A DNA stretch of 29,772 bases from the IMG/VR virus record IMGVR_UViG_3300042560_002700, positions 1 through 29,772 of that record. One strand, written 5' to 3'. Made by a program: the position numbers and the translations under genes. The notes under the pieces were generated by a model. That model was not told the origin of the DNA, searched no databases, and worked only from the letters and a program-made list of their open reading frames with translations. This document shows positions 11,165 to 29,772 of the stretch, piece by piece. The DNA is from a virus. How positions within the stretch are numbered: the first letter of the stretch is position 1; each line of letters starts with the position of its first letter.

Positions 11165-11383
11165 TCAGGCAGCAGCTGTTTGCATTTCAATTTTTTTCAA
11201 ATGCTTGCGTACTGCTGCTACGTTCCAACGATAGGTGTCGCGTGAACGTGTATCAGAAAAAGCGGCGTAGTGGGGGCCAAGCTTCAGTGTGCCGTCATCG
11301 CGGTACTTGAAGAGAGTTTTTTTATCAATGCCGAGAAGTTCTTCGGCTTGTTGGACCGTGACCCAACCTGGATGCTTAGCCAT
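11165..11383 (-). CDS. small helix-turn-helix protein, excisionase/MerR-like
   Basis: A 72-residue protein. Residues 7-40 (WVTVQQAEELLGIDKKTLFKYRDDG) match the winged helix-turn-helix of excisionase and MerR-type small DNA-binding proteins; the rest (DTYRWNVAAVRKHLKKI) fits the second wing and helix. It stands alone on the minus strand between rightward virion genes and has its own terminator. A transcriptional regulator is the simplest role; nothing else here suggests an integrase partner. Confidence 0.78.
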   Translation of the reverse strand: MAKHPGWVTVQQAEELLGIDKKTLFKYRDDGTLKLGPHYAAFSDTRSRDTYRWNVAAVRKHLKKIEMQTAAA

Positions 11384-22302: not shown

Positions 22303-24027
22303 ATGCCGTACGGAATTATTAAGATTGATACGATTACGTTTACGGATGCGGGCGTAGATAAGAGTGTCGCAATTTCGGGCTTAGTTCAAAACCCTACCTT
22401 TACTGGTAACGTAACAGCAACAGGTACCATCTCTGGTTTAATTGTTCAGGCCCCAACGGTAACTGGTACGACTGCCAACTTTGCATCTGGTGTTTACACC
22501 ACACAAATTTCTGGTGCAATTGTTAAAGTTCCAGCAGGAAGCGCTGGTGCCCCAAGTATTCAAGTAGGTGTTGGCGCAAGTGTGGCACCTGGTTTATATG
22601 GTGCTGGCATTGATCTTTTAGGTATTAGCACTGGTGGTGCAGGAAGAATTTTTATTGATTCAACGGGGCAGCTGGGGATTGGGACAAGTAGCCCAAGTCA
22701 AGCGCTTGAAGTGGCAGGGAACATTTCCGTTACTGCTAACGCAGCTTCCGCACGCATATTTGGACCCCCTCTTAGCAGCGATACAACACTTGTGCTGAGG
22801 GGTGGCAGTTCTACCGGCGAAGGTGCAAACATTGAGCTTGGGCGAGATGAAATTGTTTACATCGATGCAACGCAGCATCTATTCCGCTCGCTTGCTGGCA
22901 CCGAACGCGCCCGCATCGACAACTCCGGCAGGCTGCTGGTGGGGACGAGTAGTAACAGGCCCTCGCGCATTGGCACCAGTAGTTTTAATTCACTTTTGCA
23001 AATTGAATCAGATACAGAAGCTGCCCAGTCAATTACGAGATGGGCGGCGGACAGTAATAGCTCTAGACTCCACCTTCAAAAGGGACGTGGGACCGGCGCA
23101 TCCCCCACCATTGTCGCTGCCGACGACAACCTAGGAGATTTTACTTTTAGCGGCTACGACGGCGCAAACATGACAAACGGCGCCCGCATCACCGCCGCCG
23201 TAGACGGCACTCCCGGCACCAACGACATGCCAGGCCGCTTGGTGTTCAGTACCACAGCAGATGGTGCTGCAAGTCCTACGGAGCGGATGAGGATTACAAG
23301 CGGTGGGTATTTTAAGGCAAGTAATGATGGTAATTATTTTGGATTAACAGGCGCCTATCACGAAACGTATCAAACTGCTGACGAGCCAACGCTTGTAGCG
23401 AGAGCTACTAACGCAACACTAACAAACGCACTTCACTACGCAGTCGCCAGCCGTGCTGCTAATTCTGCATACTTCTTTTTTGTAGGCACCAGTGGGTATG
23501 GAGGTACTGCAGATGATGAGTTTAAACTTTACGGAGATGGTAACGGCAAATGCGATGGAGCTTGGACCGGAGGCGGCGCTGACTACGCTGAATATTTTGA
23601 GTGGAGCGACGGTAACTTTAGCGCAGAAGACAGGCGTGGTATCAGCGTTGTTCTTAATGGAGGCAAAATACAGCCTGCTCTTGTTGGAGAAGATCCTATC
23701 GGGGTGATCTCCGGTAATCCTTCCGTGGTGGGTGACGCTGCCTGGAACAAGTGGAGTGGCAAGTATTTACGCGATGAGTACGGCACTTACATCCAGGAAG
23801 ACTACGAAGTTGAGGATGAAGACGGTAATGCTGTCATTCAACAACGTCGCAAGCTCAACCCTGCTTACGATCCTAACCAAGAGTATGTTTCCCGCGAAGA
23901 ACGCCCTGAGTGGGATTGCGTCGGTCTGATGGGCAAACTCCGCATCCGCAAGGGGCAACCTACCGGCAGCCGTTGGATTAAGATGCGCGATATCAGTAAC
24001 TCTGTTGAAGAGTGGCTTGTGCGTTAA
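22303..24027 (+). CDS. tail fibre with Peptidase_G2 autoproteolytic C terminus
   Basis: A 574-residue protein. Residues 1-75 hold fibre-shaft repeats, one nearly identical to the preceding gene (VTGTTANFASGVYTTQISGA). The middle contains beta-strand modules typical of trimeric fibres (GQLGIGTSSPSQALEVAG; ARIDNSGRLLVGTSS). From about residue 425 (GADYAEYFEWSDG ... DPIGVISGNPSVVGDAAWN ... GKYLRDEYG) it matches Peptidase_G2, an intramolecular chaperone that trims itself off after the fibre folds. So this is likely a host-recognition fibre or spike. Starts at ATG 22303, with no strong SD. Confidence 0.85.
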   Translation: MPYGIIKIDTITFTDAGVDKSVAISGLVQNPTFTGNVTATGTISGLIVQAPTVTGTTANFASGVYTTQISGAIVKVPAGSAGAPSIQVGVGASVAPGLYGAGIDLLGISTGGAGRIFIDSTGQLGIGTSSPSQALEVAGNISVTANAASARIFGPPLSSDTTLVLRGGSSTGEGANIELGRDEIVYIDATQHLFRSLAGTERARIDNSGRLLVGTSSNRPSRIGTSSFNSLLQIESDTEAAQSITRWAADSNSSRLHLQKGRGTGASPTIVAADDNLGDFTFSGYDGANMTNGARITAAVDGTPGTNDMPGRLVFSTTADGAASPTERMRITSGGYFKASNDGNYFGLTGAYHETYQTADEPTLVARATNATLTNALHYAVASRAANSAYFFFVGTSGYGGTADDEFKLYGDGNGKCDGAWTGGGADYAEYFEWSDGNFSAEDRRGISVVLNGGKIQPALVGEDPIGVISGNPSVVGDAAWNKWSGKYLRDEYGTYIQEDYEVEDEDGNAVIQQRRKLNPAYDPNQEYVSREERPEWDCVGLMGKLRIRKGQPTGSRWIKMRDISNSVEEWLVR

Positions 24028-24664: not shown

Positions 24665-25672
24665 ATGTCAATAAAACTTGTTGAGGCAGCCGAGTTTTTC
24701 AAAGGACTGCCACATCAAATTGACGCATTTAACTGGCTCCAGGATCAGGTTTCCTCCTCGGTCCTGGAGACTTTTGCGTCAAAGTATCGAAAAAAACCAA
24801 CACCGCCCCAAAGTTTTGACAATACCTGGGACGGTGTATTTGCCGCAGCAAAAGCAGCGGGCAGTAAATACCCTGAAGTTGTTGCGGCTCAGTGGGCACT
24901 GGAATCAGGCTGGGGCAAACACACATCAGGTACTCACAACTACTTTGGATTAAAAGGAAGTGGATCCAACGTCAACACCCAAGAATTTCTTAACGGTAAA
25001 TGGGTCACAATTAAAGCCGGATTTATTGATTTCCCCGACCTTTACACCTGTGTTTGTTACCTAGTCGAGCGCTGGTACAAAGACTTTGGTCGTTACAAAG
25101 GCGTCAATCGTGCCAAAAGTGCTGAAGAGTGCGCCAGGCTTTTGGTTACCGAAGGATATGCCACTGACCCCAACTACGCAACAAAACTGATTGGCATCTT
25201 ATCCAAACAAGACAAACCCTCAACGCCAGCAGTAAAACCTGAAACGTCAGCTAAATTTCAACCCTGGAGCCCATTCACAACCAAAGTCACGGAACACATC
25301 ACCTACGGTGAATTGACTTTGAATCAAGAAGCCCGTCGTTTCACCAAGCAGTATCAGTGTGAGACAGCCTTGGAACTGTGTAAGTTTTTAGAAAAAGCAC
25401 GTGCTGAATTTGGAAACAAGCCGTTAATAATCACCAGTGGTTCACGACCGGAACCAATTAATTCACAAGTTGGTGGCGCAAGAAACAGTGAGCACACCTA
25501 CGACGCACCCTCCAAGGGTGCTGTTGACTTTTACATTGATGGTGTCAGTGTTTACACATTGCAAGACTGGTGTGACAAAAACTGGCCGTACTCAGTTGGT
25601 TTTGGTGCTAAAAAAGGATTTACACATCTTGGGATGAGAGAAAGTAAAACGCGAATTCGCTGGGACTACTGA
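24665..25672 (+). CDS. two-domain endolysin: GH73 glucosaminidase plus M15 peptidase
   Basis: A 335-residue protein. Residues 55-180 match GH73 (FlgJ-like): VVAAQWALESGWGKH with the catalytic E80, NYFGLKG, and FIDFPDLYTCVCYLVERWY. Residues 200-335 match a zinc D-Ala-D-Ala-type peptidase: SGSRPEPINSQVGGARNSEH with H277, AVDFYI with D288, and FTHLGM with H321. One enzyme would thus cut glycan and peptide bonds of the wall. No signal peptide is seen, so export would need a holin; a holin-like gene lies just downstream on the opposite strand. It is overlapped by the 55-aa gene at 25672. Confidence 0.88.
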   Translation: MSIKLVEAAEFFKGLPHQIDAFNWLQDQVSSSVLETFASKYRKKPTPPQSFDNTWDGVFAAAKAAGSKYPEVVAAQWALESGWGKHTSGTHNYFGLKGSGSNVNTQEFLNGKWVTIKAGFIDFPDLYTCVCYLVERWYKDFGRYKGVNRAKSAEECARLLVTEGYATDPNYATKLIGILSKQDKPSTPAVKPETSAKFQPWSPFTTKVTEHITYGELTLNQEARRFTKQYQCETALELCKFLEKARAEFGNKPLIITSGSRPEPINSQVGGARNSEHTYDAPSKGAVDFYIDGVSVYTLQDWCDKNWPYSVGFGAKKGFTHLGMRESKTRIRWDY

Positions 25673-27578: not shown

Positions 27579-28250
27579 TCAACCCTCATCGTATTCAGGT
27601 GGCGGTCCCGCTTCCCGTGGATTGGTAATCGTTTGTTTGTACTGCGTGGCAGCCAGAGCGTCAGCCTGTACTTTCTTTCGTGCCCTGGCATAGCACATCA
27701 ATTTACTTGGCTCAAATTCCAAAACGAGTGGGTGAATGCGGCCAGGGGGATAGTCCCTGTTCCAGCTGGAAAGCATGTGGACAGGATTAAAACATTCCGG
27801 ATTGCCACACACGCGAGTCACAAAAAACTTACCAACATCTCCCCATGCGCACTGGTAGACAGCTTTATGGAGCGAGACGTATTCAGATGATTGCTTGGCG
27901 TAGTGAGAACGGTAAGAAGGAAGGCACGCACGTTTGGAATTGCCACGTATGTGCCAGCACTCATCCATGGTTGTGACATTGATTCGGTTCCAGATCGCAG
28001 CGTATTTATGCTTGTAGTTGGGATCCAGGTAGTTGATGTCAAAACCACAGACGTTCTTCCAAATTTTCTGGACACAGTAGTAACACCAGTGGTTTTCCTG
28101 GTCACGTATGTCGTGGTTGTGCGGACACACGTAGCCCCTGTAATAACCGTGCTCATCAAGGGTTTTGTCGTCACATTGATTTGCATTTCGCAAATAGCGA
28201 ATGTTGAGCCGAGCGTTGAGTTCGGAAACCTGAGCAATCAAATTTGCCAT
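27579..28250 (-). CDS. 223-aa zinc-binding HNH-like protein
   Basis: The N-terminal half has YVCPHNHDIRDQENHWCYYC (residues 40-59), a probable zinc finger, and GFDINYLDPNYKHKYAAIW. The C-terminal half has SLHKAVYQCAWGD and RVCGNPECFNPVHM, the His-Me finger (HNH) signature CxNPxCxNPxH. Proteins of this build recur in cyanophages as conserved genes rather than mobile ones. It could be a nuclease or a zinc-stabilised DNA-binding protein. Confidence 0.7.
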   Translation of the reverse strand: MANLIAQVSELNARLNIRYLRNANQCDDKTLDEHGYYRGYVCPHNHDIRDQENHWCYYCVQKIWKNVCGFDINYLDPNYKHKYAAIWNRINVTTMDECWHIRGNSKRACLPSYRSHYAKQSSEYVSLHKAVYQCAWGDVGKFFVTRVCGNPECFNPVHMLSSWNRDYPPGRIHPLVLEFEPSKLMCYARARKKVQADALAATQYKQTITNPREAGPPPEYDEG

Positions 28251-28251
28251 G

Positions 28252-28587
28252 TCAGTTTGAGTCCAATATGAGATTGGTGGTAGGGGATCTGGAGCGAAGG
28301 ATCAGTTCCTTGCGATTGTCATGATCAGATGCGACGTGAATGACAGAGGCCTCCAGGGGGTCCTGGCCGGTGCGTAGGAAGTAAACAAGCCTGTGGGCCT
28401 GGTACTGCCCTCCCCCCAGCCTCACCACGTAGTAGCGGGTGGATGGGACGTATTTCCCGGCCATGTCTCCTTCAGCGTGCCAGCCCGTTGTACAGGCCCA
28501 CTCCAGGCCCGATGGGTACTGAGTCGACAACCGAAGCTGGGACTCCAAGTACCAGAGAGGTGGCAGTGGTGCGCCTGGTCTAGCCAT
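28252..28587 (-). CDS. 111-aa HNH-related protein, probably degenerate
   Basis: Start chosen at ATG 28587 (MARPGAPLPPLWYLESQLRL) because the longer frame would run through the inverted repeat at 28593-28808. STRYYVVRLGGGQYQAHRLV and SDHDNRKELIL follow the outline of HNH proteins, but the central Asn/His pattern is weak (VIHVASDHDN), so activity is doubtful. It is the first gene of the leftward run and lies directly behind the left arm of the inverted repeat, which carries its presumed leader. Confidence 0.6.
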   Translation of the reverse strand: MARPGAPLPPLWYLESQLRLSTQYPSGLEWACTTGWHAEGDMAGKYVPSTRYYVVRLGGGQYQAHRLVYFLRTGQDPLEASVIHVASDHDNRKELILRSRSPTTNLILDSN

Positions 28588-28592
28588 AGAAC

Positions 28593-28808
28593 CCGATAAA
28601 ACCCCCTGTTTATCTTTATTAGATCCAAATGACACTTTGCCGAAAGTGTCATTATTTGTCAAGGAATCTCAAGTGAGATTGTACTTGAGACACTAAGCAC
28701 AACCCACCAATCCCACCGTCTCACTCCTGTCTCACCATGACTCAAATAATGACACTTTACTGAAAGTGTCATGTGCGTCACGTAAAGATAGGAAGGGGGT
28801 TTTATCGG
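28593..28808. repeat. 216-bp near-symmetric inverted repeat with nested palindromes
   Basis: Left arm 28593-28658 and right arm 28743-28808 are inverted copies of equal length. Shared blocks, in order: CCGATAAAACCCCC (14), TATCTTTA (8), ATGACACTTT (10) and AAAGTGTCATTATTTG (16). Between blocks the spacers differ in sequence but not in length (4, 10 and 4 bases). Each arm contains its own palindrome, ATGACACTTT-N4-AAAGTGTCAT. The 84-base centre holds another palindrome, AATCTCAAGTGAGATT (28665-28680), and two GTCTCAC. This fills most of the gene-free 28588-28926 stretch. It may be an operator pair, a replication or packaging site, or a terminal-inverted-repeat element. Confidence 0.8.
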
Positions 28809-28851: not shown

Positions 28852-28875
28852 AAAAAATCCCCTGTTTCCAGGGGA
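28852..28875 (-). terminator. rho-independent terminator of the glycosyltransferase gene
   Basis: Read leftward: TCCCCTG, GAAA, CAGGGGA, then six T (28857-28852). It is 51 bases after the stop of the glycosyltransferase gene. Between that stop and the hairpin lies TCTCAAATGAGA (28909-28920), related to the palindrome in the centre of the nearby inverted repeat. Confidence 0.9.
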
Positions 28876-28926: not shown

Positions 28927-29772
28927 TCACGCCGCCGCCCCAACCGTGCGTTTTTCCTTCTTCTCCTTCTTTTTCTTCTTTGGCTTCTCTTCCACTTCCG
29001 GCTCACCACCCTCCATCACCTCCTGGAACACCCCGCCAAACTGAGACGCAACTGAGTCCCAACTGAATTGAGGATCCGTCACCCGCTGGTAGCAGGTATC
29101 GGCAACACGCTTGAGCTTGTCACGATCGTCGTAAAGGTCGGCAAGGATGTCTGCCAGGTGTTCGTCAGACGGGCAGGGCATCTCCCGCGCCATGTTGGTG
29201 TCCACATCTACGTGGTCGCAGCGAATGAGGCAGCCATAGCCCTCAAAAATCTCTTTGGTACTGGTATGATCCGGCACCACCTGCGCCACACGACAGGCAG
29301 CATTCTCAAAGTTGACCAGCTCCCAGCCACCCCCCTTGGTGGTATTGATCCCAATATCAGCCGCGTTGTAGATGCAATTCAGGAATTCCACCGAAACGTT
29401 CGGCGGCCCCTGGTTGTTATTGGTCATGATGATGCGACCGTTTGGATCAAGTCCGTTCTTACTCATCTCCCGCCCGAAGAGCGGCATGATATCCCACCCC
29501 TGATCCTTGGTACCGCAGTGCATATAAAGTTGTGCATCCTCACGACCGACTGCAAACTTGGCAAAGGCTGCAATCGTAATGTCCATCCGTTTGCGGAACT
29601 GATTCCTGTTGGCATTCAGGCAGATGAAGATGTCCTCCGACAGCCCCAGCTTTTTGCGTGCCTCTTTCTTATCCATGGGATAAAAGAGATCTGTATCCAA
29701 GCCATGTGGAATTACAGTGACCGGCTTGGTGATACCCGCCTTAAAGAATTCGTATGCACCAAATTCCGTAAA
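28927..29772 (-). CDS. glycosyltransferase, GT-B type (5' end outside window)
   Basis: The frame is open to the right edge of the window. Its first visible residues (YEFFKAGITKPVTVIPHGLD) and IFICLNANRNQFRKRMDITI are typical of the hinge region of retaining GT-B (family 4-like) enzymes, followed by GINTTKGGGWELVNFENAAC, where the conserved EGFGLPxxEA-type acceptor loop is replaced by GGGWELVNFE. The last 30 residues are a Lys/Glu tail (EEKPKKKKKEKKEKR). Such phage enzymes may glycosylate phage DNA, virion proteins or host surface sugars; which one is not clear. Only about 280 residues are present. Confidence 0.82.
   Translation of the reverse strand, partial: FTEFGAYEFFKAGITKPVTVIPHGLDTDLFYPMDKKEARKKLGLSEDIFICLNANRNQFRKRMDITIAAFAKFAVGREDAQLYMHCGTKDQGWDIMPLFGREMSKNGLDPNGRIIMTNNNQGPPNVSVEFLNCIYNAADIGINTTKGGGWELVNFENAACRVAQVVPDHTSTKEIFEGYGCLIRCDHVDVDTNMAREMPCPSDEHLADILADLYDDRDKLKRVADTCYQRVTDPQFSWDSVASQFGGVFQEVMEGGEPEVEEKPKKKKKEKKEKRTVGAAA

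Follow-up and report, generated by a model that had tools for sequence, protein, structure and literature searches.

The described systems closest to the locus studied here are the lambdoid immunity region, in which a repressor is paired with the operators OL and OR, the origins used by SF3 initiators (P4 ori and crr; SV40 and E1), the replicon of the PLE satellites, and the homing endonucleases I-HmuI and I-PpoI. In PLE satellites, the origin is modular and covaries with its initiator or DNA-binding domain (PMC8263062, PMC7145576), and PLE origins are engaged in an arms race with the nuclease Odn of phage ICP1 (PMC8263062). We found no literature on the element described below, a single 216-bp inverted repeat in each arm of which an outer block (A) is followed by an AT-rich block (B) and a palindrome (C).

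The locus shares features with all of these systems and departs from each. As in the lambdoid immunity region, palindromic sub-sites are repeated (the C palindromes of both arms), and near-identical phages differ at the site and in the neighbouring gene at once, which gives a divergent island between conserved flanks; unlike in that region, no HTH repressor was identified adjacent to the site, there is no sign of lysogeny, and the neighbours are putative DNA binders with a homing-endonuclease fold. The dyad, the AT-rich blocks, the nearby P4-like primase-helicase and, in some relatives, iteron-like repeats recall P4-type and SF3 origins, whereas the site studied here changes without a change in the primase, has no skew signature and is tied to the downstream operon. 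The variable semi-palindromic modules, exchanged with a DNA-binding partner, and the involvement of a nuclease-fold protein resemble the PLE replicon and ICP1 Odn (PMC8263062), but no RepA_N protein was found here, and the nuclease-fold proteins are encoded beside the site and look inactive. Finally, one neighbour resembles I-HmuI and the HNH_3 family in fold and sequence and another shares a zinc motif with I-PpoI, each departing from its counterpart at the active site.

Anatomy of the element

The sequence analysed (the window), a record of 29.8 kb, comes from an uncultured virus. Reading it directly, we found the 216-bp inverted repeat exactly where the first-pass annotation had placed it, at 28593-28808, and far above chance: in a scan of the whole window it scored 83, compared with 31 for the runner-up site, and its fold z-score was -9.3 as RNA and -10.4 as DNA, with 0 of 200 shuffles equalling it. 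The left arm reads CCGATAAAACCCCC-TGTT-TATCTTTA-TTAGATCCAA-ATGACACTTT-GCCG-AAAGTGTCATTATTTG, and the reverse complement of the right arm contains the same four blocks, separated by the spacers TTCC, CGTGACGCAC and CAGT. The description of four exact blocks with unlike spacers therefore holds, but two lengths had to be corrected: block 1 is 15 nt long (CCGATAAAACCCCCT) rather than 14, so that the first spacer is 3 nt rather than 4.

Block A occupies 28593-28607 (+ strand) in arm 1 and, inverted, 28794-28808 (- strand) in arm 2, and the two copies covary; block B (TATCTTTA) lies at 28611-28618 (+ strand) and 28783-28790 (- strand). Each arm also has, as annotated, a 10-bp palindrome of its own with a 4-base loop. 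In arm 1, palindrome C is found at 28629-28652 (ATGACACTTT GCCG AAAGTGTCAT), with a stem that is invariant among close relatives; in arm 2 it is found at 28749-28772, with a loop that flips between ACTG and CAGT among relatives. The centre of the element (28659-28742) holds the palindrome TCTCAAGTGAGA at 28667-28678, and a TCTCA..TGAGA-like centre was found again in the elements of many relatives.

The element is situated, in agreement with the annotation, between a terminator and the first gene of a leftward run. On one side lies the intrinsic terminator of a glycosyltransferase gene (28852-28875, - strand), which was read by eye and is absent from the list that a consensus scanner produced for the window; the annotated glycosyltransferase gene itself (28927-29772, - strand) extends past the window end. 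On the other side, the leftward run starts at the ATG at 28587 with the gene of a 111-aa HNH-like protein (28252-28587, - strand), directly downstream of the element, and continues with the gene of an endonuclease-like protein of the zinc-binding His-Me type (phrog_1872; 27579-28250, - strand).

Conservation and spacing in S-EIV1-like phages

Judged by its major head protein and glycosyltransferase, which are 86% and 74% identical to those of Synechococcus phage S-EIV1, the window belongs among uncultured relatives of this cyanophage. It also contains a group I intron (1236-1479, + strand; Rfam RF00028, 88 bits) immediately upstream of the gene for the major head protein, a tail fibre-like protein whose C-terminal domain is of the autoproteolytic Peptidase_G2 type (22303-24027, + strand) and a two-domain endolysin with glucosaminidase and peptidase M15 domains (24665-25672, + strand).

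The inner block was found in nine IMG/VR contigs, exact in both arms in eight of them and with an altered sequence in the second arm of the ninth. The span was 216 bp in every close relative in which both arms matched exactly, and all spacer lengths were constant across the close relatives, so that a search for the element and its spacing in related phages, proposed with the annotation, turned out in its favour. The outer stem occurs in these relatives in three spellings (CCGATAAAAC, CCGAGAATGC and CGACAAATGC), each matched by the opposite arm; by pair counting, both partners had changed in six pairs and no pair had a change in a single partner, and sliding the pairing abolished this compensatory signal. 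The loop of one inner hairpin alternates between CAGT and ACTG out of step with the outer-stem type, which indicates occasional inversion through a DNA hairpin and makes a transient DNA hairpin possible. S-EIV1 itself carries an equivalent element in the same place with a different spelling, and a third copy of its inner motif ATCTTACATATCC is found at a TATAAT promoter shortly before the next gene (L093:9127-9139, L093:8934-8979).

Across the wider family, most of the relatives bearing the glycosyltransferase have a strong inverted repeat at the same locus (controls mostly score 18-32). In the loci fetched with alignments of phrog_1872 and the primase, whose contigs partly overlap, we counted 121 strong repeats, while all sets together comprise 90 non-redundant elements. 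All 121 directly precede the 5' end of either the HNH-like gene (100) or the phrog_1872 gene (21), at a distance of up to about 100 bp, the HNH-like gene being missing in 21 of the 121 loci, and their other flank is the glycosyltransferase, an S-adenosylmethionine decarboxylase or the contig end. Even where the glycosyltransferase has moved downstream of phrog_1872 (L059/L239, L070/L252, L243 and L244), the element is still found 5' of the endonuclease-like genes; the exceptions, in which the repeat is weak, are for the most part relatives that carry an additional cupin-like gene (L066, L069, L074, L076, L085 and L088). Each of the long genomes examined has one strong copy of the element, which ranks first among the inverted repeats there, except that no strong inverted repeat was detected in G012 and G014. 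Elsewhere in the long genomes the blocks of the element are absent, except close to the start of the following gene in S-EIV1, and some relatives have extra copies of A or C close to where the following gene starts. The inner half-site is present in tandem, iteron-like copies in L141 (10461-10738) and L022 (5846-6097). Ends of a MITE or transposon were considered and rejected, given the single copy per genome at one syntenic position. As a separate observation on this region, third-position GC skew switches sign at the element (about 60-95 loci), with exo, primase, SAMdc and GT on one side and HNH-like, phrog_1872 and p314 on the other, all of these genes sharing one strand; it is positive again in p148.

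The first-pass annotation had proposed that selection acts on both block sequence and spacing, and that this suits paired protein-binding sites or a folded DNA or RNA structure better than a recent duplication. Next to the constant span and spacer lengths, the distance from A to C (outer to inner), measured in non-redundant GAAT-type elements and families, is 31-32 nt in 26 of the 34 listed distances despite unrelated spacers. This corresponds to three turns of B-DNA and would fit proteins bound along a single face of the helix. The spacing thus supports the first part of the proposal as well as paired protein sites over duplication, and of the folded structures a DNA hairpin is possible given the flipping loop, but RNA is disfavoured. 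In a functional RNA stem, an excess of wobble pairs is expected on one strand. Among 31 diverged elements, arm mismatches comprised 107 sense-wobble, 151 antisense-wobble and 357 transversion changes, and isolated mismatches 7, 10 and 30, respectively; neither strand showed a G-U excess in the arm mismatches, a result that speaks against RNA, and the element had no match in Rfam.

Nuclease-like neighbours and covariation

Of the proteins that could bind the element, the two encoded beside it appear to be better candidates than the HTH proteins at 11165 and 19154 that had been suggested for gel shifts. The HNH-like protein, which matches HNH_3 in 9 of 18 family members, was modelled from an alignment with a pLDDT of 87.5 (the single-sequence model was poor), and the closest structure to this model was I-HmuI, a weak match (probability 0.69, E 0.32). 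Its motif keeps the His in 65 of 66 proteins, while the preceding Asp, which together with that His and a final Asn marks active HNH homing endonucleases, is present in 2 of 65 and the final Asn in 0 of 65, its position being Leu in 64; the protein is thus probably nuclease-deficient. The phrog_1872 protein has an I-PpoI-like C-x4-C-x-N-P-x-H zinc motif (weak alignment to I-PpoI, E about 0.6-0.7), and at the position of the general-base His98, two residues ahead of the motif's first Cys, 66 of 70 members have Arg, 1 has Lys and 3 have His, so that most lack the His of an active His-Me homing endonuclease. As far as these weak alignments allow, the degenerate active sites make it likely that both proteins bind DNA with reduced or no nuclease activity.

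Comparison of near-identical phages indicates what the element varies with. Between L045 and L046, the proteins are nearly identical (identity 0.99 for the primase, 0.98 for the glycosyltransferase and 0.98 for phrog_1872) except for the HNH-like protein (0.75), with an identity of 0.66 for the element. Likewise, L046, L037 and L045 are about 90-100% identical over the primase and glycosyltransferase regions, their worst windows (64-76% identity) fall at the element and the HNH-like gene, and identity recovers beyond. Apart from the element, divergence in such phages affects only the HNH-like gene and part of phrog_1872. Over 54 close pairs, similarity of the element correlated best with that of the HNH-like protein (rho 0.80), followed by phrog_1872 (0.64), the glycosyltransferase (0.55), the primase (0.53) and p314 (0.19), whereas over all 50 loci the primase (0.56) and phrog_1872 (0.53) ranked highest, above the HNH-like protein. 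The short-range and long-range correlations therefore disagree, and we gave more weight to the short-range result because the primase is constant at that range. The element and the HNH-like gene co-segregate, which plain linkage between adjacent sequences can also explain. The close pairs hinted at a division of labour in which A is read by the HNH-like protein and C by phrog_1872, but this failed across all loci. A correlation peak with the element at about residues 101-130 of phrog_1872 is only suggestive, considering that many windows were scanned and that clade structure can cause such a peak.

Operator, origin and other explanations

The sequence of the element evolves rapidly, yet its two halves do so in concert, a pattern that suggests a docking site for DNA-binding proteins of the virus itself. 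Our preferred explanation, held tentatively and with somewhat less than even confidence, is a multi-site double-stranded DNA control locus, acting as operator/promoter of the operon that follows and bound by one or more of that operon's degenerate homing-endonuclease-fold proteins. Each arm would present the outer A, the AT-rich B and the self-palindromic C as sub-sites in fixed helical phase and dyad layout, one or both of the proteins encoded after the element would be the binders, and site and binder would be exchanged together as a matched cassette, as in the lambdoid immunity region. We infer the binding by operon proteins and the output in transcription control from the features above, and the element may have a role in replication as well. 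Several points weigh against an operator: no sigma-70 promoter was found inside the window's element, the HNH-like gene is not present at every locus, and at long range the similarity of the element is tied less closely to the HNH-like protein than to the primase and phrog_1872. A search of 15 genomes for a phage RNA polymerase (PF00940), made with a phage polymerase promoter in mind, gave no match, but its control likewise matched nowhere, so that the result carries no weight.

The main rival, which we consider rather unlikely, is that the element is a replication origin, at which an initiator, perhaps the Prim-Pol/PriCT/D5/SF3 (P4-family-like) primase-helicase, loads on the arms and melts the AT-rich B. 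This protein is encoded 1.5-3 kb upstream in relatives and matches P4 alpha with an E value of 4e-22; it has Prim-Pol/PriCT_2/D5_N/SF3 domains and falls a little short of the cut-off curated for the P4-family model of NCBIfam. One element per genome, the tandem half-sites and the long-range correlation with the primase would also suit an origin, yet that correlation may reflect only that the primase is the longest and best phylogenetic marker, and A and C blocks change while the primase stays 98-99% identical. Moreover, the position of the element is fixed relative to the downstream genes, and the GC-skew check proposed with the annotation revealed no origin signature: the element does not consistently coincide with an extreme of genome-wide skew, and a bidirectional origin would require a local step of the opposite sign.

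It is improbable that the element is instead the target of a site-specific nuclease, with the neighbours as free-standing homing endonucleases and the variation as escape from cutting by related phages. The HNH_3-like and I-PpoI-like genes next to it and the narrow divergence between near-identical phages are what such a target predicts, but most members lack catalytic residues, an intact site lies beside its own gene in each phage, and no allele of the locus lacking the element was encountered. Still less probable is a transcribed, structured RNA leader of the HNH-like gene formed by the outer stem and two hairpins: the strong RNA fold and the compensatory pairs of the outer stem fit it, while the missing wobble excess and Rfam match, the absence of one-sided changes in close elements, and the palindromic C blocks with their three-turn spacing point to double-stranded DNA. 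We give hardly any credence to a functionless quasi-palindrome kept symmetric by template-switch gene conversion, since, although the recurrent loop inversion indicates that hairpin-type rearrangement does occur there, the blocks stay alike while the spacers between them stay unlike, and position and architecture persist across lineages with 55-75% primase identity.

A broader version of the preferred operator explanation, which we regard as doubtful, is that two former homing endonucleases have lost cutting and become specificity factors for a hypervariable dyad site before their own genes, and form with it an exchangeable cassette, for control or for initiating replication, by which S-EIV1-like cyanophages fall into compatibility groups. 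If the nuclease-fold neighbours do bind the element, homing endonucleases would have taken on the role of sequence-specificity factors, and interference between phages could be predictable from the element type. S-EIV1-like phages are common in aquatic metagenomes, with several hundred contigs matched here, and a single-copy, position-fixed and fast-changing cis element with likely cognate binders offers a handle on their gene control or replication.
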